Source: Erythrobacter fulvus
GTDB taxonomy: Bacteria; Pseudomonadota; Alphaproteobacteria; Sphingomonadales; Sphingomonadaceae
Direction of reading: 5' to 3'
DNA length: 64,000 nucleotides
Assembly (NCBI RefSeq): GCF_028595285.1
Contig: NZ_JAQQXQ010000008.1
Coordinates: 1 to 64,000 of the forward strand
Part shown: one piece after another, positions 1-16,097 of the stretch
How the letters are laid out: every line of letters starts with the position of its first letter
Numbering within the stretch: the first letter of the stretch is position 1
Notes under the pieces: generated by a model
The model's input: the letters and a program-made list of their open reading frames with translations, nothing else
The model's database searches: none
Told to the model about the DNA's origin: nothing
Program-made: the position numbers and the translations under genes

Positions 1-303
1 GTCTGCTTTGGGGTCGGTTTCAGAATTTCGGCTTTCGGTAGGATCCGGGCCGAAGCTGACTAACCGCTTTTGGCGAAACCAGCCCTTCAGCATGCCGTCA
101 GGGAACGGCAGCAAAGTCCCAAGAGCTTCCGGCCGCTCTCGACCCAGACCCAGTCGTTCCCGATCATCATCGGCAACGTCTGCTTCCGCCGAAAGCCGCC
201 ATGCAGCTTTCGTGATCACGTATTGACCACGCTTATGGCCGGAACGGGTGGATTACGGACCCTTCTATCCAGTTTGACCTATCCGCCTCCTTCTGAACTT
301 CAT
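1..303. other. Gene-free left margin with an intergenic repeat
   Basis: I see no convincing coding sequence here. The short reading frames have no ribosome binding site and no recognisable protein. The stretch from about 70 to 128 is shared with 8662-8722, so this is probably an intergenic repeat or the remnant of one. The window edge cuts whatever lies to the left. Confidence 0.5.
70..128 (+). repeat. Dispersed intergenic repeat, copy 1
   Basis: The core starting CTTCAGCATGCCGTCAGG (about 85-125) reappears with few changes at about 8682-8722. The flanking 15-20 bases on the left (GCTTTTGGC versus GCTTCTGGC) are also related. Both copies lie outside genes, in the same orientation, at the two ends of the exported-protein region. 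The function is unknown. It could be a dispersed repeat of the genome or a scar of rearrangement. Confidence 0.6.
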
Positions 304-630
304 TTACCATGAGGGCGAGCGCGCTATCACTTCAATTTGGCACTTCCAGCGGAAGGCATCCATGACACGCCCCTGGCGATCCTCGCAGGTGCAACCTCGG
401 TATTCGGCAACCTTCCAACGTTTTTTGCCGCGCTGGTCGCCGTTGGGTGGCGCTTCCCACTTCATGCCCACTCTCAACTGCGCCTCTTGGCGGGCATTCA
501 AACAGGCTTGTTCACGCGTCGACGACGGGTTGCCTGAATAAAATTCTCGAACATCACCTGCCGCAGCTGGCATGGCTAAACTGCATATTCCAACCACAGC
601 ACAAGCTAGAACAAGACTCGAAAGGCGCAC
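304..630 (-). CDS. Small secreted cysteine-containing protein, unknown function
   Basis: This encodes a 108-residue protein with a clear N-terminal signal peptide (hydrophobic run to about residue 22, then PAAAG). The GTG start at 630 is chosen because GAGGAG lies just upstream and the signal peptide begins immediately. The mature part has an AC..AR..A pattern, a CTC motif and a final KCQIEVI. A similar layout is seen in the proteins at 3115-3426 and 3466-3717, so the three look like distant paralogues. Upstream sits an inverted, decayed copy of the 3' end of the regulator at 1164-2981, mirroring the arrangement at 2765-3426. Function is unknown; an exported periplasmic role is inferred. Confidence 0.7.
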   Translation of the reverse strand: MRLSSLVLACAVVGICSLAMPAAAGDVREFYSGNPSSTREQACLNARQEAQLRVGMKWEAPPNGDQRGKKRWKVAEYRGCTCEDRQGRVMDAFRWKCQIEVIARSPSW

Positions 631-685: not shown

Positions 686-912
686 AATCTTTCCCGCTCC
701 GCTGAAAAATTGTGAAATCGGCGGCGCCAAATTGTGAAAATTATGAAGAGCAGTAAGATCAGTCTATTCTGGACGCATCATTGCCATATCCTGCGCCACG
801 CCCAGTCGCGGCTCAAAGCTTCCCAGCGCGGCGTCTGGAATTCCCGCATGCTGTTCATTCTTGCTGCGGTTCAATCTGCCCTCGCCTGCCACGGATGCCC
901 TTCTGGTTTCAG
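686..912 (-). repeat. Inverted repeat arm 1 (mirror of 2765-3063)
   Basis: Read on the minus strand, this segment aligns with the plus strand of 2765-3063. The part covering the regulator stop codon and the downstream spacer (about 112 bases, 686-797) aligns without gaps at roughly 80 percent identity by eye. It includes the shared spacer string CTTCATAATTTTCA (CTTTTCATAATTTTCA in the other arm). Further in, the coding part aligns with indels. Both arms lead into a small secreted protein gene. Confidence 0.8.
764..912 (-). pseudogene. Decayed 3' fragment of a TPR regulator paralogue
   Basis: The minus strand encodes a remnant of the C-terminal end of the regulator at 1164-2981. The peptide HPWQARAD is conserved, but an in-frame TGA follows directly where the intact gene continues with CIAARIEQ. 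About 50 bases are missing nearer the end, and the terminal TAG is kept. No upstream part of the gene is left. It is best explained as one side of an inverted duplication that has since degraded. Confidence 0.7.
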
Positions 913-1163: not shown

Positions 1164-2981
1164 ATGCCGGATCGAGATACGATTCAACCAACGCATGAGA
1201 GAACGCCTCCCGACACCGGCGGCACCGGATCATCCAGCCATAGCGATGTGCGGGTACTTGCCTCCGGTCTCGATCAGAGCGCCGCTGCCATTCTTGCCCT
1301 TCTGCGGGCGCGTGCCGGATCCTGTGTCGGCAAGGACGAATTGCTCCAAGCGGGCTGGCCAGACCGTATCGTCCACGAAAATTCGCTCGCCAAGGCAATT
1401 GGACGCATTCGCCAGGTGCTGGCCGACGATGGCACCCTCACGCTCGAGGCCGTCTATGGTCATGGCTATCGCCTTGATCGCGTGAAGGAGGCGGTAGGGA
1501 CTAGCGCCACTATCTCAGGCGCCATTGCCGCCCGCCCGCACTGGTGGCGGACATGGACCATGCCTATGGCGCTCGTCTCGATCGCGGCTATCGCGCTTGC
1601 CGCCGTGGTCCTGCTCACACCGGACAAACCTGTTGCCCGCGCCGGAAACGCAGAGGCCGACGCGCTTCTGGCATTCCTGTCCGAAGACCTGATCCTGCCG
1701 ACCGATCCCTATGCACCCGTACCTACCAATCCCGCCTTGCGCGACGTCGTCGAACGCGCAGCCGAAAGCATGGATGAGCGATTTGCCGGTCAGCCGGGCG
1801 CGCTCGTGGCGCTCAACATTCTGGTCGCGAAGGCTTTCAGCGGCTGGGGCGAATATGACAGGGCGGTCAACCACCTGACATCGGCCCGGTTGCACGCGCA
1901 GGGGCTGGCAGACGATGAAAATGCCGCGCGGCTGGTAGAGATCGACGCGTTGGCCTGTCAGCAGATGCGGCTTGCCGGCCAGACCCGCCGCGCCGAGCAG
2001 ACCTGCAACGAAGCGGCGCGGCAAGGCACAAGATTGGCTTCGCCGCATCGGTTCATGGCGCTGGTCCATCTCGGCAAGTTGCAGTTCGAAGTGGGCCGGT
2101 ATGCGGAAGCTGCGGCCAATCTCGACCGGATACTGGATGACCAGAGCGATGTGAGTCCGGAAATCCGGGCCGATGCTCTCTGGTTCCGCGCCTTGGTGCT
2201 GCGCAAGCTCGCCCGGTTTGACGAGGCCGAAGCGGATTTTGCTGCACACCTCGCTCAGCGCGAGGCATTGCACGGAAAAGACCACCCGTTAACCGCGTGG
2301 GCGCACTCGGATTATGGCGACTTCCTTGCCTATGTGGGCGATTATGATCGGGCGCGCGCCGAACTTGCCTCGGCACAGACAATCTTCGACCGGCGACTGG
2401 GTGCGGACCATGTCGAATCCCGCTCCCCCGCCTATTCGCTTGCGCTGATCCATCTTAACGAAGGCGCAGCCGACAAGGCCGAGGCGATCCTTGCGCCGAT
2501 GCTCGCGCTCTATTCGGCAAAGCTGGGCCGCGATCATTTCTGGACCGCCTACGTGATGACCGAACTTGCCATGGCGCAGGCCATGCAGGGCGAGGCGGAC
2601 GCGGCGCGGCAACTGCTTCGCGAGGTGCGCGCCTACGCAGCCAACGAAATTTATGGCCGGCCTGCCAAGGCCGCATGGTTCCACCTGCGCTGGGCACGAG
2701 CGATGGCTGAAATTGGTGACGTGGCGACTGCACGCGATGAACTGCGTCGGGCGCGCCGCGGCATCGCTAAAGGTTTCACAGGCGACCATCCGTGGCAGGC
2801 AAGGGCGGATTGTATCGCGGCACGGATCGAACAGCGCGTAGGCGATCCGGACGCTGCCCGCGCTGCCAGGGCCAGCTGTGAGGCGCGGCTGGCGGCCAGC
2901 AATGCACCCGGCACCTATCCCGTTCATGCCGACCTGGCGCGGCTGGAGATGGTGCGGGACATGACAATGGCGCGTCCGTAA
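1164..2981 (+). CDS. Transmembrane winged-helix regulator with TPR sensor domain (CadC/ToxR-like)
   Basis: This 605-residue protein has three parts. Residues about 28-106 form an OmpR/PhoB-type winged-helix DNA-binding domain, ending in the typical AVYGHGYRL. A single membrane helix lies at about 133-152 (MPMALVSIAAIALAAVVLL). The remainder, placed in the periplasm by inference, is a long helical array with tetratricopeptide-like repeats (for example HLGKLQFEVGRYAEAAANL). This is the architecture of one-component membrane regulators of the CadC/ToxR group, which bind DNA from the membrane. It is followed by seven exported-protein genes on the same strand, so it may sense envelope or external signals and control them. 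No strong ribosome binding site precedes the ATG at 1164, so the start is uncertain. A decayed inverted copy of its 3' end lies at 764-912. Confidence 0.8.
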   Translation: MPDRDTIQPTHERTPPDTGGTGSSSHSDVRVLASGLDQSAAAILALLRARAGSCVGKDELLQAGWPDRIVHENSLAKAIGRIRQVLADDGTLTLEAVYGHGYRLDRVKEAVGTSATISGAIAARPHWWRTWTMPMALVSIAAIALAAVVLLTPDKPVARAGNAEADALLAFLSEDLILPTDPYAPVPTNPALRDVVERAAESMDERFAGQPGALVALNILVAKAFSGWGEYDRAVNHLTSARLHAQGLADDENAARLVEIDALACQQMRLAGQTRRAEQTCNEAARQGTRLASPHRFMALVHLGKLQFEVGRYAEAAANLDRILDDQSDVSPEIRADALWFRALVLRKLARFDEAEADFAAHLAQREALHGKDHPLTAWAHSDYGDFLAYVGDYDRARAELASAQTIFDRRLGADHVESRSPAYSLALIHLNEGAADKAEAILAPMLALYSAKLGRDHFWTAYVMTELAMAQAMQGEADAARQLLREVRAYAANEIYGRPAKAAWFHLRWARAMAEIGDVATARDELRRARRGIAKGFTGDHPWQARADCIAARIEQRVGDPDAARAARASCEARLAASNAPGTYPVHADLARLEMVRDMTMARP

Positions 2982-3063
2982 TAGACGGATTTTGCTGCTT
3001 TTCATAATTTTCAGAATTTGGCGCTGCTGATTTCATGATTTTTCAGTGGTGAGGGAAAGATTC
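2765..3063 (+). repeat. Inverted repeat arm 2 (mirror of 686-912)
   Basis: This arm covers the last ~70 codons of the regulator, its stop codon and the spacer before the next gene. It matches the minus strand of 686-912, with the best match in the spacer around the stop codon. Confidence 0.8.
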
Positions 3064-3114
3064 GCCTGACGGTTTGCGCAAGAAACATCCCACCATAAGT
3101 AACGGGGGAATGTT

Positions 3115-3426
3115 ATGCGGTTTGCCAATCTTGCCATCTCAGCGATCGCCGTGGCCGCTTTTTGCGGTCTGGCTGCACCCACGAGCGTATCAGCCCAATC
3201 TGCTAGCCAGATCCGCATAAAGATAGCTTCCGGAACTGCATTTGCCGAAACCAAAGGTGAGGCGATCTCCAGAGCAAAGGACATCCTCAAAGCCAATGCA
3301 ACGAACCAGTGCGGGGGCAGGGGTTGGACTTCGGTCGGGGATGTGGACACGACAGTATCTCGACCCGCCGGACCACGAAACGAGCTTTGGGTTATCGAGC
3401 TCAAGATGAAAGTTCGATGCAACTAG
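3115..3426 (+). CDS. Small secreted protein, unknown function
   Basis: This encodes a 103-residue protein with a signal peptide (hydrophobic to about residue 20, cleavage near VSAQS). The ATG at 3115 follows GGGGGAA at good spacing. The mature protein has an ISRAK-helix-like segment, one NQCGG cysteine and a C-terminal KVRCN. The order and spacing resemble the proteins at 304-630 and 3466-3717, suggesting a small family of exported proteins. It is the first gene after the regulator and starts a run of seven exported products. The function cannot be named. Confidence 0.7.
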   Translation: MRFANLAISAIAVAAFCGLAAPTSVSAQSASQIRIKIASGTAFAETKGEAISRAKDILKANATNQCGGRGWTSVGDVDTTVSRPAGPRNELWVIELKMKVRCN

Positions 3427-3465
3427 GCTGATGGCAGCGATTGGTGTTGCGAGCTGTAAAGTACA

Positions 3466-3717
3466 GTGAAGCGATCTTTCATCTCGATGTTGGCGATCTC
3501 GCTCGCCACCCAGACCGGCGCGCCTGCCTGGGCCCGTTACACCGCCAGCGCCTCGGGACCGACGGATGCGCTGGCTTGCTCTGCCGCGCGTGACAAGGCT
3601 GCGGCCCACGCCCGTGCGCATCTGGGGCTCAATCTCCGAAAGTGCCGCTGTCCGCCCGCCGTCAAAGGGCAGAACAGAACTTGCCGTATCGACTACGAAA
3701 TACTTACCAAGGAATAG
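3466..3717 (+). CDS. Small secreted cysteine-containing protein, unknown function
   Basis: This encodes an 83-residue protein with a signal peptide ending near PAWARY. GTG at 3466 is the likely start, because translation from it opens directly with KRSFISM and the hydrophobic segment; the ribosome binding site is weak. The mature part has ACSAARDKAAAHARAHLG, then KCRCP and a final CRIDYEI. This is the pattern of the protein at 304-630 (AC..AR, CTC, KCQIEV). The stop codon is four bases before the next gene, so the two are probably co-transcribed. Confidence 0.6.
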   Translation: MKRSFISMLAISLATQTGAPAWARYTASASGPTDALACSAARDKAAAHARAHLGLNLRKCRCPPAVKGQNRTCRIDYEILTKE

Positions 3718-3721
3718 CGCA

Positions 3722-4756
3722 ATGACCGTCCGGACCTCGCCTCGCAATCGGCTGAGCGTTCATGCCGGTGGTTCGTTGCTCGCGCGGCAGGGGGGCGCGC
3801 GCAGGGCGGCAGCGCCATGCCTTGCCGCCCTGGCCTTGGTCGGCACGCTTGCCGCCTGCGGCGAAAGTCGAACCGGTAATCGGGGATCCGAGGCCGACCC
3901 GCTCGCCGAACCGGTTGGCGAGACGGCAATTCGTGCCGCGGACTGCAACGGGACCGGTATTGTCGCAAACCTTCCCGCCGAGGACGGTTTCCTCGCCGTG
4001 CGGGCAGGGCCAAGCACGAATTACAGCGAAATCGCGCGGCTGAGTGGCGGCGCGGAGATACACCTGTGCACACCCGCCAAGGACAATCGCTGGGTAGGCG
4101 TCGTCTATCGCCCCGACGGCGATTTGCCTGATGCCGCACGTTGCCGCCTGACTACCGATGACAGCCCGCGCTACGAAGGGCCTTGCCGATCCGGGTGGGT
4201 TCCAGCTCGTTATCTCCTACTCGCAGAAAAAGGGGAGGAGAGCGTAGAGCCGGTCGTCGACGGCAATTCGGCATTTGACAATGATGCCGCGGCCGGCGGC
4301 ACCAGCAATTCGCGAAACGCTGCGCAAATCGATCAATTGGGCAACGACATTCTGCTCTCCACCCCCGGAACGTTCACCGCAGGGCACCAAAATCCCGATC
4401 GCAATTGGACAATCACAATCAACAATCAGATCAACATAAACGGTTGTTCGATGTCGCTGCGTGTTAGGCAAGATACACGATCGAGAGAAAATCGTACGAC
4501 AATACAATCTGTCAATTTTGATATGAGGTCAGTATCTGAATTTCAGACAGGATCAAGCAGCAGCTACAACTATCATTACACTAATATAGTGTTTCCATAT
4601 GGCGAAGAAGGAAACATAGTCGATTTTTATTCACAAAGTGACCGTAGAGATATCAGTAATTCTAAGGATAATATCATAGCACTATTATTTGATAGCGATA
4701 TCGCGGCCAAGGAAGTTATGTTGAAACTACGGGAAATGCAGCGCTTGTGCTCATGA
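3722..4756 (+). CDS. Lipoprotein with bacterial SH3 domain, unknown function
   Basis: The predicted protein has 344 residues from the ATG at 3722. Its hydrophobic segment ends in GTLAAC, a lipobox, with the cysteine near residue 46. The N-terminus before it is unusually long and arginine-rich. Residues about 75-160 look like a bacterial SH3 domain (FLAVRAGPSTNYSEIARL, then RWVGVVY), a fold often used to bind peptidoglycan or peptides. The C-terminal half has no recognised fold. The last ~300 bases are strikingly AT-rich compared with the rest of the gene, suggesting a different origin for the 3' part. It overlaps the next gene by ATGA. An earlier in-frame start at 3566 is rejected because it would overlap the previous gene. 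Confidence 0.7.
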   Translation: MTVRTSPRNRLSVHAGGSLLARQGGARRAAAPCLAALALVGTLAACGESRTGNRGSEADPLAEPVGETAIRAADCNGTGIVANLPAEDGFLAVRAGPSTNYSEIARLSGGAEIHLCTPAKDNRWVGVVYRPDGDLPDAARCRLTTDDSPRYEGPCRSGWVPARYLLLAEKGEESVEPVVDGNSAFDNDAAAGGTSNSRNAAQIDQLGNDILLSTPGTFTAGHQNPDRNWTITINNQININGCSMSLRVRQDTRSRENRTTIQSVNFDMRSVSEFQTGSSSSYNYHYTNIVFPYGEEGNIVDFYSQSDRRDISNSKDNIIALLFDSDIAAKEVMLKLREMQRLCS

Positions 4757-5154
4757 CTCGGGCTCTGCTCACCGCGCTGCGCTGGCATATGTTTTCCGCT
4801 ACGATTTATGCGGCGGTCGCCTGCATTGCCCTATCCGCCCAGCCCACCACGGCGCAGCATTTGAGCGATGGCGATTACGAACAATGCGCTGTCTACGATC
4901 GCGAGGATCGCTTCATCGGATATGACAGCGTGTGCCTTGCCCGAAAGCGCGCGTTGCTACGCCGGTTCGATGGTGGTCGGCCCCAAAGCGATGAGCCTTA
5001 TTACTGCCCGTGGACCGCCAACAACGGTCAGGGCTTCAACATGACATGGCACTCGGACGGTAGGGTGCCGACCTATTTCGGCACGTTCGATCGCACGATG
5101 GACGGCATCCCCTGCATCGGTAGGTCTGCGCGCCGGACACGTGGCTATCCGTGA
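4753..5154 (+). CDS. Secreted protein, unknown function
   Basis: This encodes a 133-residue protein with an N-terminal hydrophobic segment and probable cleavage after TTAQH. The start is taken at ATG 4753, which overlaps the stop of the lipoprotein gene (ATGA), a usual sign of translational coupling. A GTG two codons upstream is possible. The mature part contains about five cysteines and a tryptophan-rich CPWTANNGQGFNMTWHSDG motif. No family is recognised. Confidence 0.65.
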   Translation: MTRALLTALRWHMFSATIYAAVACIALSAQPTTAQHLSDGDYEQCAVYDREDRFIGYDSVCLARKRALLRRFDGGRPQSDEPYYCPWTANNGQGFNMTWHSDGRVPTYFGTFDRTMDGIPCIGRSARRTRGYP

Positions 5155-5173
5155 CTTCAAGAGGAGACTGATA

Positions 5174-5587
5174 ATGAAACGAATTGTAGCCCATGCTTCA
5201 GCACTTGCCGCAATTTTCCTTGCCATGCCGCAGCCTGCACTGGCCGAAACGCCCGCCGAGATTGAGGATTATTTCAAGAGCATTCGCGAATATTCGCTTC
5301 CCTACGCGCAGGATTGCGCCTCTGGGCGCGCAGAGTTCGAGAGCGAATGCGGGCGGGCGATGGAAGACCTGATCTGCAGCGTCAACGCGATGTATATCGT
5401 GCTGGAAGAAAACAATGTCACCGGCGGGCGCTTCGTCCAGCAGTTGACCTCACTCACGAACTTCCTTGCCAATAACGAGGCCTATATCAACGAACTGATG
5501 AGCCGCGGGGAGATGCGCAATCCCGGCAAAATGGGATCACGCATGAGCGGATATTGCAGCAGCATCAATTCGACCATCCGGCCATAA
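5174..5587 (+). CDS. Secreted protein, unknown function
   Basis: This encodes a 137-residue protein with a signal peptide (cleavage near ALAET). ATG 5174 is chosen over an upstream in-frame start at 5141 because AGAGGAG stands just before it. The mature part is helical and acidic with four cysteines that could pair (DCASG, SECG, ICSV, GYCSS). It lies 19 bases behind the previous gene in the run of exported products. No family is recognised. Confidence 0.65.
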   Translation: MKRIVAHASALAAIFLAMPQPALAETPAEIEDYFKSIREYSLPYAQDCASGRAEFESECGRAMEDLICSVNAMYIVLEENNVTGGRFVQQLTSLTNFLANNEAYINELMSRGEMRNPGKMGSRMSGYCSSINSTIRP

Positions 5588-5616
5588 CCGGCCAGCAGCG
5601 TTAGGGGGTAGCCAAG

Positions 5617-6699
5617 TTGGAATGGAAGCGCATGCTCTTGGCAATGGCGCTTGCTGCGGGATCAGGTTACGCGGCCGCGCAATCGCGTGACGATGAACGG
5701 ACCCCCGGCTGGTATTACCTGTGGGCGCAATGCCCCCAGGAACCGTCGACGTCGGAGGAACGCTTCCTGTGCGACGAGGGTTTTGAAGGCGAACAGGCCC
5801 AGGCTCTGGCCATTAGCAACGCCTTCGAGGTTGATGGAAACGGCATGGCTGAACGCGAATTGTTTGCCGTAGAAGTCGCCCGGCGGTTCGGGTTCGAGGC
5901 TGAGGTGCGCGAAGTCGGCCCGTTCCCGGGGTTTCGGGCGGTCGATGCGGAAATCGTCCGCACCCTGAAGGCCAGCCGCCGCATCCACAAAGGGCTGCTG
6001 GCTGTGACTCCGGTGACGCTCGAGCCCGAACGTCTGGCTGATGAACCCAATGACGAGGAACGCCGGACGCAGCCCGCGCCGCTTCCCCCGGTCATGGAAA
6101 GCTTCAAGGACGGCAACGCGACGCTGTGGCGTGACGATGCAAGCAGGACTTGCGGCCTGCGTCTGCCGGACGGAACCGAAGTCACGCCCGCTTACGTCAC
6201 CGACCTGTGGGGCGAGAACGGGGAAGGTTGCCCTGCACGGCTGGTCGAAGGATGGGACATTTTCCGTTTCGACGTGCCCCGCAGCGGCATGATCTGTGGC
6301 GATACCGGCGTGTGCACCGAACTCTATGACGGCGAGGGCCACTGGACCGGCGTCGTCGAGGAAACGCCCCATCCGCTCTTCTCGATCGACCTGTTCCAGG
6401 ACTGGGGAATCATCGCCACGGGCATGCGGAACCACCGGCTGTATTCGATCCCCGAACGCCGTTTCCTGTTCGAAGGCTGGCCGGGACCGGCGCCCGAGGA
6501 GGAAAGCCGGGTGATCATTACCGGATCGGCGATCATCGAAGACCGGCTGGCCGTGACGATCGACCGCGAATATCGTGATGCCAAGCCGGATATGGGGGTT
6601 TTCTGGCTTGATACGATGACCTTCGAAGTGATGGACGAGAAGGCGCAGGAACGGCGCAGGCGTGTAAACGCTGACGGGAGCCATGATGATGGGGAATGA
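5617..6699 (+). CDS. Secreted protein, unknown function
   Basis: This encodes a 360-residue protein with a signal peptide ending near YAAAQ. TTG 5617 is preferred because AGGGGG lies at normal spacing; ATG 5632 is the alternative. The second half reads as beta-rich repeats (for example LWRDDASRTCGLRLPDG and DIFRFDVPRSG), which could be a propeller- or WD-like exported fold, but this is only an impression. The gene overlaps the next one by 17 bases, supporting an operon. No family is recognised. Confidence 0.65.
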   Translation: MEWKRMLLAMALAAGSGYAAAQSRDDERTPGWYYLWAQCPQEPSTSEERFLCDEGFEGEQAQALAISNAFEVDGNGMAERELFAVEVARRFGFEAEVREVGPFPGFRAVDAEIVRTLKASRRIHKGLLAVTPVTLEPERLADEPNDEERRTQPAPLPPVMESFKDGNATLWRDDASRTCGLRLPDGTEVTPAYVTDLWGENGEGCPARLVEGWDIFRFDVPRSGMICGDTGVCTELYDGEGHWTGVVEETPHPLFSIDLFQDWGIIATGMRNHRLYSIPERRFLFEGWPGPAPEEESRVIITGSAIIEDRLAVTIDREYRDAKPDMGVFWLDTMTFEVMDEKAQERRRRVNADGSHDDGE

Positions 6700-7681
6700 C
6701 GGCTATCGCACGCATTCATCGGCATCATGGCGCGTTCCGCGTCGGGGCGTATTCTCGGTGCTGCTTGCTACAGCCGCGTTTTCGCAACCGGTGGTGGCGC
6801 AAAACGCAGTGCAGGCCAACGCAGCGGCGCTTGCCGAACGGGTTTGCCTTTCGCCCGACATCTCCGACGGCTCCGATCGTGAAGGGCCGTGCAAGAAGGC
6901 GCTGATCGCACTGGAATCGGCTGGATTGCAGCAGACCCTTGTCCACGCGCGGGTCCAGCAGTCGCTCGGTCACATCTGGGCGGATCGCGGTAAGGCTGAA
7001 GGGGCCGCGAGCCATTACCAGAGCGCGATCGCCTTCGCACTTTCGTCATCAATCACCCGGGGCGAGCGGTATGAACAGCTGGCCGATCTGGAGATAGGCA
7101 GTGCCGGGTTTTGCGCCCGGTCGCCGGTAGCGCGACTGGCGATCGCCATGGCAGACCTGCGCCAGTCATGGCAGGCGAGCGATGATCTCGCCACGGCCGC
7201 CATACAATCCTTCGCGCTGGATCCCGGGGCCAAGACAGCCCCGGCGACCCTCAACAGCACCAATTTCGCTGCCCGGCAGATGATGGTTCTGTTGGGTGGA
7301 TTGTTTCCGCAATTCAATCGTCCGATGGACGTGCCGTTGCTGGTTAGCCGGCTGGTTTCGAAATCGGTGCCCGCCGACGATGAATTCGCGCAGGAGCCCC
7401 AGATCGCGTTTATGGAAGCGTTATTCGCCGGGGATCGCGGGCATGATGCGGCAGCGGCGCAATTCATCGACGCTCTCGGCAGGTTGGAAGATGCGACCTA
7501 TGTCGGCGAGGATGATGCAGACGAAGACGAACGGGCAGAAGCAATCACGAAGTTCGCCGCAGCTCATGCCGCTTTCCGCGCGGTCGTTCCGGAGGTGCTG
7601 ACATCACGCCAGCTCGACCTTGCGCTGCAAAAGCGACTTCCTGCGGTGTGTTTTGCAGGCACGGAAGAAGCTTCCAAATAG
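6683..7681 (+). CDS. Secreted helical protein, unknown function
   Basis: This encodes a 332-residue protein. After a basic N-terminus (RVPRRG) comes a hydrophobic segment with cleavage near VVAQN. The rest is alpha-helical, with TPR-like stretches (HYQSAIAFALSSS). Three ATG codons occur in a row at 6683, so the exact start is open. It overlaps the 3' end of the previous gene. It is the last gene of the exported-protein run and ends 92 bases before a convergent gene. Confidence 0.65.
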   Translation: MMMGNDGYRTHSSASWRVPRRGVFSVLLATAAFSQPVVAQNAVQANAAALAERVCLSPDISDGSDREGPCKKALIALESAGLQQTLVHARVQQSLGHIWADRGKAEGAASHYQSAIAFALSSSITRGERYEQLADLEIGSAGFCARSPVARLAIAMADLRQSWQASDDLATAAIQSFALDPGAKTAPATLNSTNFAARQMMVLLGGLFPQFNRPMDVPLLVSRLVSKSVPADDEFAQEPQIAFMEALFAGDRGHDAAAAQFIDALGRLEDATYVGEDDADEDERAEAITKFAAAHAAFRAVVPEVLTSRQLDLALQKRLPAVCFAGTEEASK

Positions 7682-7773: not shown

Positions 7774-8442
7774 TCAGATTGCCGCTGCGCGAGCCACAAG
7801 TCGTCCCAGCGATTTTTCGACCGCTGTCCGGTTCGCGGCGGATTTCATCCAGCCGGGCAGACGGCTGGCCATGGCGCCGGGCAATATTGCGCCGTCGCGT
7901 GACCGGGCCGGCGAAGCAATCCATTCCAGCAGAGCAAGGGCATGGGCACGGTTATAAGCCCACAAGGTGCCCCGTCCTGTTTCCTCCTGCAGATAAAGCG
8001 CGCATCCGAAGGCCGGATCACGCGGTTCTCCCTGTTGAAATCGGGGCACCCAGCGCGCCGCGACCGGCTTGACGGCAGCGCATGTCTCGCATTGCGCATC
8101 AAGGCTCACCGCATGGGTCGCCACAGGCGGAAAAGACGGCCGCGATCTTTTCGGGATAGTCAGCCCGTTGCCGCACTTGTCGCAGCGCTCGGATCCGCTC
8201 GTTACCAACGTGAATGCGCCATACCAGTCGCCATTGCTGCCCGCGCGTTCGTAACTCGCCCCATCGGCGCCGAAAAGCCTGCGCCGGACGCGGCTCTGCA
8301 ACAGATTGCAGCGAGGGCACACAAGACGCACAAGGTCGCGGACGTGGGCCGCTGCTCCGCAGCGTGGGCAGCAGACCAGAATATCGCGGGCGAATTCCCC
8401 GACAGGCCCATTCCCGCTCTCCATGCGTGGTTCAGTCATCAC
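7774..8442 (-). CDS. Zinc-ribbon (TFIIB-type) protein
   Basis: This 222-residue protein has four CxxC pairs (CPRC twice in the first 50 residues, then CDKC and CETC). These should form two zinc ribbons of the TFIIB-like type. The C-terminal half is helical without a recognised catalytic motif. Such proteins are annotated in many proteobacteria as TFIIB-type zinc ribbon-containing, with unknown role. It is convergent with the exported-protein run and carries no signal peptide, so it is cytoplasmic. Confidence 0.65.
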   Translation of the reverse strand: MMTEPRMESGNGPVGEFARDILVCCPRCGAAAHVRDLVRLVCPRCNLLQSRVRRRLFGADGASYERAGSNGDWYGAFTLVTSGSERCDKCGNGLTIPKRSRPSFPPVATHAVSLDAQCETCAAVKPVAARWVPRFQQGEPRDPAFGCALYLQEETGRGTLWAYNRAHALALLEWIASPARSRDGAILPGAMASRLPGWMKSAANRTAVEKSLGRLVARAAAI

Positions 8443-8808
8443 ACTAGCTTAGATTGAAAGACGGTTGATGTCGCCGGTAGCAGACGCATCATGAAGGTGG
8501 GGCAGTAGCCAGAGATCACTGCCTTATCTTTTGGGTGGTCCTTTCTGAAAGTACAGGATTGCAGTCAAACGAACGGCCGCGTCGGGGTTGCAACCTGCAT
8601 GTCGGGTTTCAGGAAGCGAACCTTGGAAAGCCTCCATCGGCGCTCCCGAGCACGCTTGTGTCAGCTTCTGGCAATTTCAGTCCTTCAGCATGCCGTCAGG
8701 GAACGACGGCTAAGTCCCAGATCCAGTCATAAGGGCCGCTCGAAGACCTTGTTTGCCAGCGGGCGATCAGTGGGTAAAAACCATGAGTGCATGGGGAGTG
8801 CAAAGCCC
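8443..8808. other. Intergenic stretch with dispersed repeat copy 2
   Basis: There is no supportable gene in these 366 bases. The segment 8662-8722 is the second copy of the repeat at 70-128. The boundary between the exported-protein region and the recombinase module lies here. Confidence 0.5.
8662..8722 (+). repeat. Dispersed intergenic repeat, copy 2
   Basis: This shares the core TCCTTCAGCATGCCGTCAGG with the copy at 70-128, in the same orientation about 8.6 kb apart. Differences are concentrated after the core (GGGAACGACGGCTAAGTCC against GGGAACGGCAGCAAAGTCC). Confidence 0.6.
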
Positions 8809-9363
8809 TCATTCGCCGAAGTAGCCCCACCACTCTGGCCACCGGACCTTGTGCGGCGTGCGGGTGGCGTCCCATACTTCGCGTTGCTCTTCGAATGTTA
8901 GCTGCCTATCGCCGAGCCGCGCAAGTGCTGCCTCCACGATCCATGGATTGAGCTCCCAGCGCACGCGAACTTCGTCGGTCGGATATTTCAGCTGCGCGAT
9001 GCCAAGGGTGTCAATGATCGCGTCCATGCCCGAGTCCACTGCTTTCCAGACAAGCCTGGTTGGCCCGATGTAAGTGTCAGTACGAGCGGCCCGCGCCGTC
9101 TCGATCGCCTCAAGTGACGCGCGTGCTGCGGCACTGTCTCCGGCGAGGCCCTTCTGGGTGAGCTGGAGCAGGAACGCCTCGGCCGCGGTCACTCGGCGTT
9201 CGCGGCCCTCCTCGCGGATCGTGACCATCTGGCCGAGCACGGCATCATAGGGGATCTCACGACGGCTTCTCTTTGGCCGCCCGCGTGGATTGCCGGACTG
9301 CCCCTTGCGGAACCGGGTCTTGCTCGGCGGTTGACCGTAACCGACAGGCTCGGGCTCGCTCAC
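8809..9363 (-). CDS. DUF5681 domain protein
   Basis: This 184-residue protein carries the N-terminal hallmark FRKGQSGNPRGRPKRSR at about residues 18-34, typical of DUF5681 proteins. It is the last gene of a minus-strand trio, overlapping the previous one by four bases. The remainder is helical and ends in a tryptophan-rich tail. The basic GRPK segment could touch DNA (inference). DUF5681 genes are often found next to phage- or element-related methylases and terminases. No enzymatic activity can be assigned. Confidence 0.7.
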   Translation of the reverse strand: MSEPEPVGYGQPPSKTRFRKGQSGNPRGRPKRSRREIPYDAVLGQMVTIREEGRERRVTAAEAFLLQLTQKGLAGDSAAARASLEAIETARAARTDTYIGPTRLVWKAVDSGMDAIIDTLGIAQLKYPTDEVRVRWELNPWIVEAALARLGDRQLTFEEQREVWDATRTPHKVRWPEWWGYFGE

Positions 9364-9875
9364 GCGATCCGTCCGCGCGGCCAGCGCAAGGTTTCGGAAT
9401 CGCTGGTAAAGAACTTGATGTCCTTCACGTCCTTGTCCGTGAACTTGCGGCGCCCCGGCTTGCTGAGCGCGGCTTGGGTCGCCCAGGCGTTGACCTTCCA
9501 GCGCTTGGGAAAGCCGGGATCAGGCTCCGCGATCCCGAGGATGCGCATGGCCTCGTTCGCATTGTCGGCACAGTGATGCTGTTCGAACGTCATAGGCGTC
9601 CGCCTGACGCCGCCCTTCTTGAGCAGCGCGGCCTCGCGCTTCTCGATCATCTTCAGGACCTTGCGGATCGCCATGCGCTTGCCAGCGAGCGCATCCTTTA
9701 GCGTCTGCTGCTGCAGCACCTCCTCAACGGTGAGCTCGCGCTCCTTCCCGCCGACGTTGGCGGTGAGGCGCTTGTCGAGGACGATTTCGAACGCCGAGAC
9801 ATTGGGTCGCCGTGCCTTTGGCGGCCGCCCTTTCGGATTGCCGGACTGACCGGGCTTGAAGCGCGTGTCGCTCAT
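9360..9875 (-). CDS. DUF5681 domain protein
   Basis: This 171-residue protein begins with FKPGQSGNPKGRPPKARR, the DUF5681 signature, at about residues 6-23. It is a paralogue of the gene at 8809-9363. It overlaps both neighbours by four bases (ATGA type), which points to one translationally coupled operon with the methyltransferase upstream. Its cellular role is unknown. Confidence 0.7.
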   Translation of the reverse strand: MSDTRFKPGQSGNPKGRPPKARRPNVSAFEIVLDKRLTANVGGKERELTVEEVLQQQTLKDALAGKRMAIRKVLKMIEKREAALLKKGGVRRTPMTFEQHHCADNANEAMRILGIAEPDPGFPKRWKVNAWATQAALSKPGRRKFTDKDVKDIKFFTSDSETLRWPRGRIA

Positions 9876-11179
9876 GCGGTCACCTCGTCGCTGTTGTCGC
9901 GATGGACCAACACGGGATTTTTTCCGGTGAGGTCGCTCCAGCGCTGCATGGCAATGTCGACATAGGCCGGATCAATGTCGAGCCCGCGGAAGCGCCTGCC
10001 AACGCGCTCGGCAGCGATCAGGCTGGTTCCCGAACCAAGGAAGATGTCCAGGACAAGGTCGCCCTGCCGGGTCACATCGCAATACGCATCGGCCACCATG
10101 GCGACCGGCTTGACCGTCGGATGGAGGGCAAGGTCCTCGCGGCGCGAGCCCTTCATCGAGTTGACGCTCGCATAGTCCCAGACATTGGTGCGGTTGCGCC
10201 CATGCTTGCCGAGCTCGACATTATTGGTGTGGGCTGCGGAGCCCACCCGGTAAACGAACACCATCTCGTGCTTGGACCGATAGAGCGACCCCATACCGGC
10301 ATTGCTCTTGTTCCAGACACAGATGTTGAGCAGGTCATCATAGATACCGGTAACCGACGCGGTCACGTCGTCCATGTGACGCCAGTCCATGCACACGAAG
10401 TGAACCGCGCCGTCGCGCGAGACCTTGGCGCAGGCGCCCAGCGTCTCGGCCAGGAAGGCGCGGAACTCGCCCTCGCTCATCTCGCCTGAAGCCATCGCGA
10501 ACTCGCGGTGACGCCCCTTGGCATTGGCATGACCGTTGATCTTCACGTTGTAGGGCGGATCGAGGAACGCACAGTCGATGGCCTCACCTTCGCCAACAAC
10601 GCGCTGGAGGAAGGCAACGTCGCGGCCATCACCACATGCGACCCGGTGCTCGCCCAGCTGCCAGATATCGCCGGGCTTCACGCGCGGGCTTTCGGGAACG
10701 GCCGGGATGACCTCATCATCCGGATCTTCGCTTTCCGACAGTACGACGTCGATTTCGCCGGGGCTGAACCCGGTAAGCCCAAGGTCAATGTCGATCTCGG
10801 GCAGCGACAGCTCGGCGAGCTCGAGCTTGAGAATCTCGGTATCCCAGCCTGCGTTCAAGGCGATCTTGTTGTCCGCGAGCCGAAGTGCCTTCTTCTGCAC
10901 ATCGGTGAGGCCATCGAGGGTAATTACCGGAACGCTCTCGAGCCCCATCTCCTTTGCCGCGCGCAACCGGCCATGGCCTGCGATGAGGTTGCCTTGCGGA
11001 TCGGCGAGGATCGGGTTGGTGAACCCGAAGGCGCGGATCGAGGCGATGATCTGCGCGACCTGCTTCTTCGAGTGGGTGCGCGCATTACGCGGGTCGGGCG
11101 TGAGCTCGCCGGGGGCCTTGTAGACCACTTCGAGCGTGCGACTGGCAGGTTGTCCCGCCTTGGAGAGGAGGTTGGACAT
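9872..11179 (-). CDS. ParB-domain/DNA adenine or cytosine-N4 methyltransferase fusion
   Basis: This 435-residue protein starts with a ParB/Srx-like domain (about 20-115, with NPILADPQGNLIAGHGRLRA). The methyltransferase domain has catalytic motif DPPY at about 207-210 and the SAM-binding motif DIFLGSGTSL at about 378-387. The order (catalytic motif before SAM motif) is that of beta-class amino-methyltransferases that modify adenine N6 or cytosine N4. No restriction endonuclease is next to it, so it looks like an orphan methylase. It heads a minus-strand operon with two DUF5681 genes and is divergent from the recombinase operon across a 192-base shared promoter region. Confidence 0.85.
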   Translation of the reverse strand: MSNLLSKAGQPASRTLEVVYKAPGELTPDPRNARTHSKKQVAQIIASIRAFGFTNPILADPQGNLIAGHGRLRAAKEMGLESVPVITLDGLTDVQKKALRLADNKIALNAGWDTEILKLELAELSLPEIDIDLGLTGFSPGEIDVVLSESEDPDDEVIPAVPESPRVKPGDIWQLGEHRVACGDGRDVAFLQRVVGEGEAIDCAFLDPPYNVKINGHANAKGRHREFAMASGEMSEGEFRAFLAETLGACAKVSRDGAVHFVCMDWRHMDDVTASVTGIYDDLLNICVWNKSNAGMGSLYRSKHEMVFVYRVGSAAHTNNVELGKHGRNRTNVWDYASVNSMKGSRREDLALHPTVKPVAMVADAYCDVTRQGDLVLDIFLGSGTSLIAAERVGRRFRGLDIDPAYVDIAMQRWSDLTGKNPVLVHRDNSDEVTA

Positions 11180-11371
11180 ATGTAGAACATATCACGCAAG
11201 CCCCTCATTCAGAAGGGCGCAGCCCGGTTTTTATTCACAGGTAACGCACCCTGCGCAGAACGGACTGGACTGTGCCCACGCCCTGAGCATTGCTGTCCTG
11301 GCGCCCGGCTCGGTCCGGGCTTGTCCCGGTAGCAGCGGCCATTCCGTCCGCCGCACCAACGGGAGACGATC
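11180..11371. promoter_or_regulatory. Divergent promoter region between methylase and DUF3489 operons
   Basis: These 192 bases must hold the promoters of both operons. I see a GGGAGA ribosome binding site for the plus-strand gene near 11360-11365. No clear sigma-70 boxes can be assigned with confidence. The middle contains a GC-rich self-complementary stretch around 11300-11330. Confidence 0.4.
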
Positions 11372-11611
11372 ATGACCGAGACCAACATCACAAGCACAGG
11401 CAAGCCCGCGAGCAAGCTCGACACGCTCGAGAAGCTTCTTCGCCGCAAGAACGGCGCGACCATCGCCGAGATGGTCAAGACAACCGGATGGCAACAGCAC
11501 TCGGTGCGCGGCGCGCTCGCAGGCGCGATCAAGAAGCGCGGGCACGCGGTGATCTCGGACAAGATCAACGGGACGCGCCGCTATCGCATTGCGGAGGCGG
11601 TCAATGCATGA
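11372..11611 (+). CDS. DUF3489 small helix-turn-helix-like protein
   Basis: This 79-residue protein matches the DUF3489 family: KLDTLEKLLRRKNGATIAEM, then TGWQQHSVRGALAGAIKKR and ISDKINGTRRYRI. The fold looks like a small winged helix, so DNA binding is likely (inference). ATG 11372 follows GGGAGA. Its stop overlaps the start of the DUF2924 gene. DUF3489, DUF2924 and a large recombinase form a recurrent trio in alphaproteobacteria. Confidence 0.8.
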   Translation: MTETNITSTGKPASKLDTLEKLLRRKNGATIAEMVKTTGWQQHSVRGALAGAIKKRGHAVISDKINGTRRYRIAEAVNA

Positions 11612-12026
11612 GGCGTTCGAGGAACATGATGCGGTCGAGCAGCTTGTCGCCGAGATTGAGGCGATGGATCTCGATGGCCTGCGCGGGTTCTGGAGGGCGC
11701 GCTACGGCGCCCCTCCCTCGCTGCGCTCCACGCCGCTCCAGCGCCGGCTGCTGGCGTGGCGGATCCAGGCACAAGCCTATGGTGGACTAGATGCCGATAC
11801 GCGCAAAACAGTATCGCGGTCGGGGCCCGTACAACCCGAGGGCCGGCGACTGGGCATTGGCGCACGGCTCACCCGCATCTGGAAGGGCCGCGAGGTGATC
11901 GTGGTGGTCGAGCAGGATGGGTTCCGCTGGGAGGACCAACTGTTCCCCAGCCTCTCCGCAGCCGCGACCGCGATCGCCGGCACCCGCTGGAACGGACCGC
12001 GCTTCTTCGGTTTGCGAGACAGCTGA
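11604..12026 (+). CDS. DUF2924 domain protein
   Basis: This 140-residue protein has the DUF2924 features: FWRARYGAPPS near the N-terminus, the TPLQRRLLAWRIQAQAYGG helix, and a C-terminal VVVEQDGFRW plus AAATAIAGTRWNGPRFFGLR. The C-terminal part resembles a small DNA-interaction module seen next to recombinases. ATG 11604 overlaps the preceding stop by eight bases; a TTG five codons upstream is less likely. It overlaps the recombinase start by one base (TGATG). It probably assists or regulates the recombinase (inference from its constant neighbourhood). Confidence 0.8.
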   Translation: MHEAFEEHDAVEQLVAEIEAMDLDGLRGFWRARYGAPPSLRSTPLQRRLLAWRIQAQAYGGLDADTRKTVSRSGPVQPEGRRLGIGARLTRIWKGREVIVVVEQDGFRWEDQLFPSLSAAATAIAGTRWNGPRFFGLRDS

Positions 12027-13633
12027 TGCCCACCACCATAAGGCGCTGCGCGATCTACACCCGCAAGTCTTCCGAGGACGGCCTAGACCAGTCGTTCAAC
12101 AGCCTCCACGCCCAGCGCGAGGCTTGCGCCGCCTATATCCTGAGTCAGGCGAGCGAGGGATGGGAGGCGCTTCCCGAACACTATGACGATGGCGGGTTCT
12201 CGGGTGGCAACACCGAACGCCCCGGTTTGAAGGCCCTGCTCGCCGATATAGCAGCGGACCGGATCGACATCGTGGTGGTCTACAAGATCGACCGTCTCAC
12301 CCGCAGCCTCGCCGACTTCGCGCGGATCGTCGAGGTGTTCGAGAAGCATGACTGCAGTTTTGTCTCGGTCACCCAGTCGTTCAACACCACCGGGTCGATG
12401 GGCAAGCTCATGCTCAACGTCCTCCTCTCCTTCGCCCAGTTCGAGCGCGAAGTCACCGGCGAGCGTATCCGCGACAAGATCGCCGCCTCCAAGGCCAAGG
12501 GCATGTGGATGGGCGGCGTGCCGCCGCTCGGCTATGATCCGCCGACCGATGGGTCACGCACGCTCAAGGCGGCCGAGGCCGAGGCAGAACGAGTGCGGCA
12601 TATCTTTGCTCGTTATCTCGAGCTGGGCTCGGTCCACGCCCTCCAGCGTGATCTCGAGCAGCGTGGCATTCATTCCAAGCTCTATGTCACCGCAAAGGGC
12701 AGGACCATGGGTGGGCAGCCCTTCAGCCGCGGTGCCCTGTTCCACCTCCTGCGCAACCGCGTCTATCGCGGCCAGATCGTCCACAAGGGCACCGTGCATG
12801 AGGGCGAGCATGCAGCAATCGTCGATGCCGAACTGTTCGACCGGGTGCAGACCCGGCTCGATGCCCAGGTGCGGCGGCATCAGACGAGGGCGAAGAACCG
12901 CAGCGTCAGAGCGCCGCTGACAGGCAAGCTGTTCGATGCGGTCGGATATTCGATGAGCCCAACCACCTCGCGCGGAAAGTCGGGACGAACCTATCGCTAC
13001 TATGTCTCGGCGCCGCTCCAGCAAGGCGGGCGGCCCGTCGGTTCAAATTCGATCCAACGCCTGTCGGCGCCCGAGATCGAACGGGTCGTGAGCGAGGCCG
13101 TCCGGCGCTGGGTGCCCAAGATAGAGGATCCGTTTGCGATCGTCCGCTCGATCCACCTAAGCGAGCGGGGATTACAGGTCGCGCTTGATGCCGAGCAAGG
13201 CAGGAGCCTCGCCGCGAGGTTGGGCGACGGCGAGGTGATCCTTGATCGTACCACCGACAGCATCACCGTCTCGCTGCCGATCCTGTTCGCACCGCGCGGG
13301 TCACGCACGCTTGTTCTTGCTGCCAACTCGCGACCGCGACAACCTGACCCGGTGCTCATCTCTGCCCTCAGAAAAGCCCACGCTATGCTCCGGACCAAAC
13401 GCGGCCTGCCGATGATCGATTCGGCACCGCGCTCCCCATACGATCGTGCGATCCTGCGCCTCGCCTTCCTCGCCCCCGACATTCAGCGCGCCATTCTCGA
13501 AGGACGCCAGCCAACCCATCTCAACCTTGAATGGTTCAAGGGAATCGACGTCCCGCTCGCTTGGTCGAAGCAGCGAGAGATGCTCGGATTTGGCCCACGC
13601 CGTACTTTCTGTTCCGGCGAACAAATCACCTGA
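12026..13633 (+). CDS. Large serine recombinase
   Basis: This 535-residue protein starts with a resolvase-type catalytic domain (about 5-150). The nucleophile is in YTRKSSEDG, probably S15 in the YxRxS pattern, followed by DGGFSGGNTERPGL and KIDRLTRSLADF. A Recombinase domain follows (about 170-300, with GRTMGGQPFSRGALFHLLRN), then a C-terminal DNA-binding region. Serine recombinases integrate, excise or invert DNA through a serine-linked break. ATG 12026 is chosen because it overlaps the previous stop; the longer open frame from 11756 is not needed. The gene ends just before a cluster of CCCTGTT repeats, which may be its target site (inference). Confidence 0.85.
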   Translation: MPTTIRRCAIYTRKSSEDGLDQSFNSLHAQREACAAYILSQASEGWEALPEHYDDGGFSGGNTERPGLKALLADIAADRIDIVVVYKIDRLTRSLADFARIVEVFEKHDCSFVSVTQSFNTTGSMGKLMLNVLLSFAQFEREVTGERIRDKIAASKAKGMWMGGVPPLGYDPPTDGSRTLKAAEAEAERVRHIFARYLELGSVHALQRDLEQRGIHSKLYVTAKGRTMGGQPFSRGALFHLLRNRVYRGQIVHKGTVHEGEHAAIVDAELFDRVQTRLDAQVRRHQTRAKNRSVRAPLTGKLFDAVGYSMSPTTSRGKSGRTYRYYVSAPLQQGGRPVGSNSIQRLSAPEIERVVSEAVRRWVPKIEDPFAIVRSIHLSERGLQVALDAEQGRSLAARLGDGEVILDRTTDSITVSLPILFAPRGSRTLVLAANSRPRQPDPVLISALRKAHAMLRTKRGLPMIDSAPRSPYDRAILRLAFLAPDIQRAILEGRQPTHLNLEWFKGIDVPLAWSKQREMLGFGPRRTFCSGEQIT

Positions 13634-13998: not shown

Positions 13999-14012
13999 TG
14001 GCGGAGCAGGAG
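13999..14012 (+). repeat. Far-end attachment site of the tRNA-Ser island
   Basis: The 14 bases TGGCGGAGCAGGAG are identical to 21480-21493, the 3' end of tRNA-Ser including the CCA. With six more bases on the left, 19 of 20 positions match. The copies are in direct orientation, as expected for attL/attR created by a tyrosine integrase in a tRNA 3' end. The integrase lies at the other end next to the tRNA. Confidence 0.8.
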
Positions 14013-14095
14013 TCCGCTATTATATCGTTCTAATAACAAGAAAGTGCTTAGAAATTTTCTATCCGAAAAATGGCAATCCCACACTTTCACCCACA

Positions 14096-14635
14096 TTACT
14101 GCGATGGCGTTGCGTTGGCCTTGTCGTTTAGCACTTGGCGCAGGACGCGATTGAAGGAAGGGTTTTTAGACGGCTTGATATCCGCCAAACACTGATCGAT
14201 GGCATTTTTTGTTGCTGCATACAAACGGTTAGCGGAGTCCGAGCCCGATTGAAGTATGCCCGCGTTGCAATACTCAAAAGTGCCCCAAATCTGCCCGCCC
14301 GCAGCATCCGGCAATGTATCCCACTGTTGGACTGAAACATCGAGTGCAACAACGCATGTGCTACCGCCAACGTGCACCACATTTGCATTTACGTAAACGT
14401 ATGCGTCAGCTTCACTTGAGACAGTTATCCGATTGTAGCGAAGCGCAGATTTAGTCGCGCCCTCGATACCTTGCTTTGTCACATTGCAACGTATCGCATC
14501 AGGACTCAATTCCTCGATCACCACTTTTAAGCTGGCTGGGATCACTTGCTGCGCCATGACTGGAGTTACTACGCAGCAGGCTAGGACGCACCCCGAACCG
14601 ACCATTTTTGCAAGCTTTGATATCGTTAGCACCAC
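14096..14635 (-). CDS. Exported protein, unknown function
   Basis: This encodes a 179-residue protein with a signal peptide (GCVLACCVVTPVMAQ). The mature part starts with IPASLKVVIEELSPDAIRC and contains further cysteines and a helical C-terminal region (NAIDQCLADIKPS). A GTG start at 14635 or the next codon follows GGAGGGG. It overlaps the end of the thermonuclease gene by ten bases, so the two are probably translated together. It is the last gene before the island border. Function unknown. Confidence 0.65.
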   Translation of the reverse strand: MVLTISKLAKMVGSGCVLACCVVTPVMAQQVIPASLKVVIEELSPDAIRCNVTKQGIEGATKSALRYNRITVSSEADAYVYVNANVVHVGGSTCVVALDVSVQQWDTLPDAAGGQIWGTFEYCNAGILQSGSDSANRLYAATKNAIDQCLADIKPSKNPSFNRVLRQVLNDKANATPSQ

Positions 14636-15012: not shown

Positions 15013-15045
15013 GGCGGATCGATACCCTTGAGTTTCTCTGAGGAC

Positions 15046-15684: not shown

Positions 15685-15818
15685 TATTGCCCCTCTTGAT
15701 CAAATCGACGCGAATCGCGCCGTGGATTAAGATTGCCCGAATCCCGATTTAATGTCTAATTTTCAAAGCGAAGGGGCGACATCGCGCATAGAAAAAATTA
15801 ACCTCAACCGTCGTAGGG

Positions 15819-16097
15819 CTAAACGCGCAAACTAATCCCATCCGCAAGCTCGGCGGCTGGGAAGGCGCTCACGAAGGCATGCGCGATTTCGATATTACGG
15901 AAGTAGAATGCCGCCGTGCTGCAAGCCAAGCCGGGCGCACCGTGGCAGGCATATTCTGCCGCCGAGACGTTTGCTCTCAGCCAATCGGTCATGCCATCGA
16001 GCAGCTTACCCAGCCCGCCATCCGGCACGCGGATTTTCACCCGGACCGGAAAGGCCAGATCATCCCGCTTCGCCTGCCGAATCGAATGCTGCGACAT
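15819..16097 (-). CDS. Small conserved cytoplasmic protein, unknown function
   Basis: This 92-residue protein has no signal peptide. It contains LLDGMTDWLRANV and a CSTAAFYFRNIEIAHAF block, which reads as a compact alpha/beta domain rather than a chance frame. It sits in the island behind a 478-base gap holding repeats. No family name can be given. Confidence 0.55.
   Translation of the reverse strand: MSQHSIRQAKRDDLAFPVRVKIRVPDGGLGKLLDGMTDWLRANVSAAEYACHGAPGLACSTAAFYFRNIEIAHAFVSAFPAAELADGISLRV

Follow-up and report, generated by a model that had tools for sequence, protein, structure and literature searches.

What joins a membrane-bound transcriptional regulator to seven exported proteins, none of which reaches the cut-off of a curated protein family? 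The question is raised by a locus at the start of a 64,000-nucleotide stretch of Erythrobacter fulvus DNA (NCBI RefSeq assembly GCF_028595285.1, contig NZ_JAQQXQ010000008.1, positions 1 to 64,000 of the forward strand). We refer to the whole stretch as the window; its first base is also the first of contig C19 in the 3.11-Mb window genome (G000). The initial annotation had pictured a regulated surface or periplasmic machine. One part of that idea held, as a regulator-linked block of exported genes with a common operator-like element recurs at six loci; the varying content of the block speaks against a fixed machine. The architecture, the linkage and the common element are well supported. On the evidence of sequence comparison, we consider it rather probable that the locus is a mobile regulon under one-component control, serving a modular assembly of the envelope or cell surface. 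The genes of the locus, named below by their first coordinate, are as follows, with Erythrobacter dokdonensis DSW-74 (G071, the nearest named relative we found) and other genomes (G numbers) given for comparison.

304-630, reverse strand: divergent small exported protein with a cysteine (Cys) pattern and a predicted beta-alpha-beta-beta fold
1164-2981, forward strand: ToxR-like membrane regulator of 605 amino acids, with an OmpR-type winged helix, one transmembrane (TM) helix (residues 133-151) and tetratricopeptide repeats (TPR) that are predicted to be periplasmic
3115-3426, forward strand: small exported protein, whose position in DSW-74 is taken by another protein (30% identity)
3466-3717, forward strand: small exported protein with the Cys pattern; relatives in DSW-74 and G430
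3722-4756, forward strand: lipoprotein with a lipobox-like LAAC and a sub-threshold SH3-like N-terminal part (SH3_3)
4753-5154, forward strand: small exported protein with four conserved Cys, the hallmark family of the locus (4747 family); the open reading frame (ORF) runs from a GTG at 4747, and the ATG at 4753 is the likelier start
5174-5587, forward strand: exported protein with a relative in G430; identity to the DSW-74 counterpart is 38%
5617-6699, forward strand: exported protein of 360 amino acids; its N-terminal domain occurs alone in G130 and fused to a 6683-type domain in G430
6683-7681, forward strand: exported protein; its C-terminal domain family occurs in G363, G352 and G430, and directly after a giant gene in G126 and G142
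7774-8442, reverse strand: zinc-ribbon-like protein with Cys pairs, sub-threshold in Pfam, with no signal peptide seen and 100% nucleotide identity to DSW-74

The layout agrees with the initial annotation, which had described seven tightly spaced or overlapping exported genes on one strand. The seven ORFs downstream of the regulator (4747-5154 when read from its GTG) are separated, in order, by 39 nt, 4 nt, an overlap, 19 nt, 29 nt and a further overlap, and the 133-nt gap between the regulator and 3115 contains an operator-like site. All seven products begin with a hydrophobic, signal-peptide-like segment, judged by hydropathy and by eye, as was the lipobox of 3722. Two genes of the locus, the exported 304 and the zinc-ribbon gene, both on the reverse strand, lay outside that annotation. 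Searches of Pfam and NCBIfam placed none of the seven exported proteins at a curated cut-off, and so did not disperse them among unrelated known families. The SH3-like domain that had been assigned to 3722 is present as a weak match and falls below the gathering cut-off (SH3_3, 16.5 bits against 27; 19.3 bits for the G430 relative). We treated other weak Pfam matches, such as LT-IIB on 5174 (E 0.15), CBM_1 and GspH, as chance. PADLOC matched none of 10 window proteins at E 0.1. PHROGs gave weak matches for three of 10, all to families of unknown function; those among the seven exported proteins were 4747 (E 0.078) and 6683 (E 0.0015). Sigma-70 promoters and terminators at the locus did not rise above the level of shuffled sequence. 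A low ratio of nonsynonymous to synonymous change (dN/dS) relative to DSW-74 indicates for most genes of the locus that they are real.

The regulator itself was as first described, a membrane winged-helix protein with a TPR part. Pfam Trans_reg_C matched residues 38-104 with 37.2 bits (cut-off 26.2) and TPR_12 matched with 86.8 bits (cut-off 30.1). A single 19-residue peak with mean hydropathy above 1.6 (residues 133-151) separates the two, and a single peak was likewise present, by hydropathy alone, in each of seven other regulators checked (8/8 in total). The available portions of PMC5430869 define ToxR-like receptors by a cytoplasmic OmpR-type DNA-binding domain, a single TM helix, a periplasmic sensor domain and gene regulation through DNA binding. 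The window protein has the OmpR-type domain, presumably on the cytoplasmic side, and the single TM helix; its TPR part follows the TM segment and would be periplasmic. Among proteins of known structure, the winged helix matched SaeR, TcpP, BaeR and CadC in sequence, and the top matches of the TPR part were kinesin light chains.

We then asked whether the block recurs, using profile searches of 396 genomes of the order Sphingomonadales (regulator threshold E 1e-40). Regulator relatives were found in 7/396 genomes and the 4747 family in 14/396, with both in six: G000, DSW-74, G130, G352, G363 and G430, from five genera and two families. The two genes are adjacent in all six, so that a 4747 relative stands in the same locus in six of the seven regulator genomes. 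With marginals fixed and kinship ignored, the hypergeometric probability of at least six shared genomes is 4e-9. Only the best 3-6 candidates per genome were scored in the regulator searches, so regulator absences are soft. Because a simple gene caller missed real window genes, we compared families on six-frame ORFs with iterated hidden Markov models (HMMs); the listings of neighbouring genes, including those for dehydrogenase neighbours and giant-gene stretches given below, rest on the simple caller. The locus of G430, which belongs to another genus, holds relatives of six of the seven exported genes. The HMMs detected there the regulator, a 3466-related small protein, 4747, 5174, the N-terminal, SH3-like part of 3722 and a 5617 relative joined to a helical domain; a relative of 6683 was found by blastp (E 3.5e-4) and by hhalign. 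In the other loci the HMMs detected regulator, zinc ribbon, 4747 and 6683 (G352), regulator, 4747 and 6683 (G363), and, besides regulator and 4747, the N-terminal 5617 domain (G130).

Wider searches returned little. In a class-wide sample the regulator had no match at E 1e-30 in 229 genomes besides the window's own, at least two of these from the same family. Plasmid, phage and IMG/VR collections yielded no relative of 5617, of the regulator or of the 4747 family, although not every protein was searched in every collection; the sole match there, a weak one, was to an FxsT TPR stretch of a single plasmid. Few genomes carry the zinc-ribbon gene (4/196). Its relative adjoins the regulator in G352 and lies on a contig other than the regulator's in G130; the zinc-ribbon stretch of G132 contains no related exported gene.

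A second shared feature is a row of TTTCA repeats that ends in a core, TTTCA-N10/11-AAAGAY, and lies between the regulator and the exported genes in 6/6 loci. In the window it is arranged as follows.

2999-3061, forward strand: operator-like element before the exported genes, with TTTCA repeats and the core TTTCA-N10-AAAGAT at 3041-3061
687-747, reverse strand: second operator-like element, before 304-630, with its core at 687-707
686-810: arm of an inverted repeat, 81% identical to 2938-3062, made up of a duplicate of the regulator 3' end and of the small genes' promoter region
2938-3062: other arm of the inverted repeat, 81% identical to 686-810

Gene 304 thus has its own copy of the element, through inverted duplication of the promoter region together with the regulator 3' end. 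Clear repeats precede the core in G000, DSW-74, G352 and G363. Eight locus stretches contain ten cores, against 0.09 expected in first-order Markov sequence; the pattern was written from nine of the ten, which makes this count circular when taken alone. We scanned 19 genomes with the core, using the reversed pattern as control, and found 1-13 matches per genome, against 0-5 for the reversed pattern. The window genome has four matches, two of them inside the locus. DSW-74 has three: two inside its main locus, and a third about 75 bp behind an orphan second regulator (L044 12000-14408; 58-61% identical). This regulator and its element are flanked by bamD and recN, which lie 2.4 kb apart there and about 13 bp apart in the window genome. 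This third match continues upstream as TTTCAGAATCTTTCAG, a further upstream repeat, and was unseen when the pattern was written. Both matches of G363 fall in its locus, one before a small gene and one before the divergent 4747 gene. From these patterns, the element may be the switch of the locus and the predicted binding site of the regulator.

Several observations weigh against reading the locus as one regulon. Gene content varies strongly between loci, with only the regulator and the 4747 family present in all six. One genome, G337, has the regulator and no 4747-family gene, and none of its five core matches lies near its regulator; conversely, no regulator was detected in 8 of the 14 genomes that carry a 4747-family gene. 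Most core matches are off-locus in G130 (11/12), G352 (7/8) and G430 (5/6), the reversed pattern also gives two matches in G363, and 12 genomes without a detected regulator have 1-13 core matches each, so the core by itself lacks specificity. In G130 and G430 the repeats that precede it show less regularity. The window genome and DSW-74 are near relatives, and their sites are therefore not independent. Finally, no recognisable exported gene follows the orphan regulator of DSW-74 despite its element.

Some neighbours of these genes are recorded here in their own right. In six of the eight genomes in which no regulator was detected (L076, L078-L082), the 4747 family stands beside a dehydrogenase of about 630-720 residues, which we take to be of the pyrroloquinoline quinone (PQQ)-dependent type; it adjoins the gene in four and is one gene away in two (L080, L082). 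In G337 (L074 8392-11092), a truncated-looking winged-helix gene of the same kind (293 amino acids) directly precedes the regulator relative. In G352 (L073 13087-15861), a TPR-CHAT protein (CHAT, 152 bits) adjoins the locus; a caspase link through it was set aside, as tblastn found none in the window and the regulator profile, which detects its TPR, found none in the other loci.

How the block came to be shared is best seen in the comparison with DSW-74, whose locus (L005) keeps the gene order with two differences: there is no sequence match to 3115, with another small protein in its position, and 5174 and 5617 are separated by an additional ORF of 125 residues whose start is signal-like. Nucleotide identity over aligned codons is high for the zinc ribbon (100%), 6683 (99.2%), 304 (98.1%), the regulator (96.5%) and 3722 (96.2%), intermediate for 4747 (93.3%) and 5617 (90.5%), and low for 3466 (70.7%), 5174 (49.4%) and 3115 against its positional counterpart (44.7%). 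Protein identity is a mosaic of 30-100% across the block. Over its three long alignments the block is 91-96% identical; lepA is 92% identical between the two genomes, and the chromosomal background around bamD-recN is 81-90% identical in the four longest alignments and 72-87% in shorter ones. The dN/dS ratio was 0.15-0.25 for the regulator, 3722, 4747, 5617 and 304, and 0.30 for 3466. The changes in 6683 (1.01) are too few for a judgement, and synonymous change approaches saturation in 3115 and 5174.

The surroundings of the block suggest a mobile region.

66-121, forward strand: 56-nt direct repeat to the left of the locus, 84% identical to 8664-8719
8664-8719, forward strand: 56-nt direct repeat to the right of the locus, 84% identical to 66-121
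12026-13633, forward strand: large serine recombinase within the same homologous block
13999-14012, reverse strand: 14-nt copy of the tRNA-Ser 3' end; DSW-74 homology stops 5 nt further on
20159-20941, reverse strand: tyrosine integrase, flanked by the att-like copy and the tRNA gene
21480-21570, reverse strand: tRNA-Ser (gga); the copy at 13999-14012 repeats its 3' end

A third copy of the 56-nt repeat core lies at G000:C2:4425, where window positions 1-126 match at 99%. The block homologous to DSW-74 ends at window position 14017, at the copy of the tRNA-Ser(gga) 3' end. In DSW-74 it ends at the corresponding 14 nt of tRNA-Ser(gct), a gene located 16.6 kb further on, with an integrase between, so that the block adjoins two different tRNA-Ser sites. 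At the right boundary both species thus have the duplicated tRNA 3' end and the integrase of tRNA-associated islands. Taken with the dN/dS values, the alignment shows different apparent integration sites in the two species and purifying selection on most genes. A serine recombinase follows the locus in G352, as in the window. Within the shared block, window 8809-13633 carries two DUF5681 genes, a ParB-like DNA methylase, DUF3489, DUF2924 and the serine recombinase; beyond it, 13999-21570 is a 7.5-kb integrase element between tRNA-Ser(gga) and the 14-nt copy, with PC4-like, PEP-CTERM and HTH_17 genes inside.

Such a setting could also produce mere island cargo, that is, unrelated exported genes behind a regulator that are inherited together only because they travel together. 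The mosaic identities between the two species, the variable content and the island itself would all fit, as would the occurrence elsewhere of the 4747 family and of the SH3-like part of 3722 (3722 was matched in 45 of 198 genomes of a sample of relatives, full length in G000 and DSW-74, N-terminal part in the others). We nevertheless consider cargo without a common function unlikely, as the linkage is kept in five genera and two families amid differing surroundings, the loci share an operator-like element, most genes have dN/dS of 0.15-0.30, and one gene fusion joins parts of the block. In that fusion, in G430, a 5617-type domain is joined to a 6683-type (helical) domain. The hhalign comparison of the 6683 C-terminal domain (helA) with the fused domain (helF) gave 70.0% (E 4e-5); that with an intermediate family (helE), which includes the proteins after the giant genes of G126 and G142, gave 96.1% (E 2.9e-9), and helE against helF gave 98.3%. 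Two further domain assignments failed: a PH-like domain common to the 3722 C-terminus and exported proteins of G363, G130 and G352 is not claimed (best hhalign 6.4%), and a beta-propeller guess for 5617 was dropped (mean pLDDT 34 for a structure model from a two-sequence alignment).

The small exported proteins suggest another division of labour, in which 304, 3115 and 3466 would be fast-changing periplasmic partners of the regulator TPR, as ToxS is to ToxR or VtrC to VtrA, and the remaining genes would be its output. Fast-evolving co-components are known beside ToxR-type regulators (available portions of PMC9214523), and between the window and DSW-74 two of the three small proteins diverge much faster than the regulator (66% and 30% identity against 96%). 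A Cys pattern (AC-A...C.C...C) had 13 matches among 1219 ORFs of 60-170 residues, against 2.55 expected from composition shuffles. Ten of the 13 are small exported proteins of the loci (two in G000, three in DSW-74, two in G363, one in G430 and two in G352), which gives each of these five loci at least one; the other three have no signal-like start by eye. However, the pattern scan found no such protein in the G130 locus, 304 is conserved like the regulator (98%), and the small genes lie behind their own element and do not overlap the regulator gene. Nor did 3115 group with the small Cys family (hhalign 0.5%, no motif). Modelling of the 304 product, the sole small protein modelled, with five relatives in AlphaFold gave a mean pLDDT of 74.8 (block means of 73-93 from residue 31) and a beta-alpha-beta-beta arrangement of three strands and one helix, not a lipocalin-like barrel. 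Its closest solved chains among the families listed were dodecins (Z up to 6.5, Foldseek E of at least 0.4), and SIMPL, RcsF and FlgT ranked lower (Z of 4.7-4.8); in this range, by the tool's own warning, matches may share only a common arrangement. The dodecin-like arrangement of the model may be no more than that. On balance, a co-sensor role for the three small proteins seems doubtful to us.

The distribution of the 6683 family raises a further alternative, that these proteins serve a large secreted DUF4347/cadherin/RTX protein. In G142 and G126 a 6683-family exported protein and a HEAT-repeat protein directly follow a giant gene (1835 and 2072 amino acids by the simple gene caller; L121 2769-9497 and L122 8103-15539), with a sulfotransferase-like gene before it. 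The G142 giant gene (L121), the only one searched against Pfam, has DUF4347, RTX and cadherin-like domains, and the G430 locus contains a relative of the HEAT protein. Against such a role, the listed stretches around the six regulator loci contain no giant gene of this kind, although the G430 contig ends soon after the locus. Relatives of the other window families are likewise missing from the G142 and G126 stretches, although G142 has a 4747-family gene on another contig. We regard a partner set for a giant surface protein as very unlikely. Least probable of all is an immunity or competition array, in which exported, diversifying proteins would protect the cell from the toxins of neighbours or from phages: single-gene replacement between near-identical neighbours and mobility fit it and nothing more direct does, and PADLOC matched none of the 10 window proteins, nor did any family of toxins or immunity proteins pass its Pfam or NCBIfam cut-off.

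We return to the mobile one-component regulon and the mechanism it would imply. The regulator would span the inner membrane, its winged helix facing the cytoplasm and its TPR superhelix the periplasm. There the TPR part would bind a cue, a protein or a peptide, and regulator assembly would change in response. The regulator would then bind the tandem TTTCA repeats before the exported genes and switch them on. The small disulfide-capable proteins, the lipoprotein and the larger exported proteins may cooperate, either in the periplasm or at the cell's outer membrane or surface; the export signals, the co-inheritance and the one gene fusion suggest such cooperation. By comparison of the two species, the parts list appears to be exchanged cassette by cassette, in a block placed at different tRNA-Ser integration sites.

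More tentatively, the loci could form a class of mobile surface-remodelling islands in Sphingomonadales. A TPR-type ToxR-like sensor and one operator type would be the fixed chassis, and exported disulfide-capable modules (the small beta-alpha-beta-beta, 4747, 5174, 5617 and 6683 families) the exchanged cassettes. If this possibility, which we hold to be less than an even one, is true, strains would show different envelope assemblies under the same switch, and selection at the cell surface would be consistent with a constant switch whose cassettes are exchanged. A list of orphan ORFs, several of them in families without any Pfam or NCBIfam model, becomes a regulon that can be put to the test: its operator and regulator are predicted, and five genera supply natural variants.

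A literature search found no paper on this locus, none pairing a ToxR-like or CadC-type winged-helix membrane regulator with tetratricopeptide repeats and none pairing DUF4347 with such repeats. We compare the locus with known systems part by part. With tRNA-Ser genomic islands it has in common the tRNA 3'-end copy at a boundary, a tyrosine integrase and different sites in two species. It differs in that no left end appears in the contig, so that the mobile unit is not closed, and in that the boundary separates the integrase from the locus. HilA/EilA regulators share the winged helix and presumably also carry TPR. The match to NF009037 was only 37.7 bits, over the winged helix, against a curated cut-off of 589, and the window regulator has a TM helix, which HilA is not known to have. 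The FxsT model (NF040586) reached 93.9 bits, under its curated cut-off of 300. Cassettes of the VtrA/VtrC type (MarT/FidL with MisL, PsaE/PsaF) likewise combine a membrane regulator with an exported neighbour and control envelope genes, for example the neighbouring MisL, according to the available portions of PMC9214523; here no overlapping lipocalin-like partner was seen, the exported genes are many, and the hosts are Sphingomonadales rather than enteric bacteria. A further likeness is to the ToxR-like receptors CadC, ToxR and TcpP, which have the same N-terminal OmpR-type winged helix, one TM helix and a part beyond the membrane; an AT-rich target is also shared with the preference described for CadC in the accessible text of PMC5430869. 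The window element differs in being a row of direct TTTCA repeats. Beyond the membrane, CadC has an alpha/beta sandwich and a helical domain (PMC9214523, same portions), whereas the window regulator carries a kinesin-light-chain-like TPR array, a putative sensor unlike the ToxR and CadC sensors that the available portions of both sources describe.

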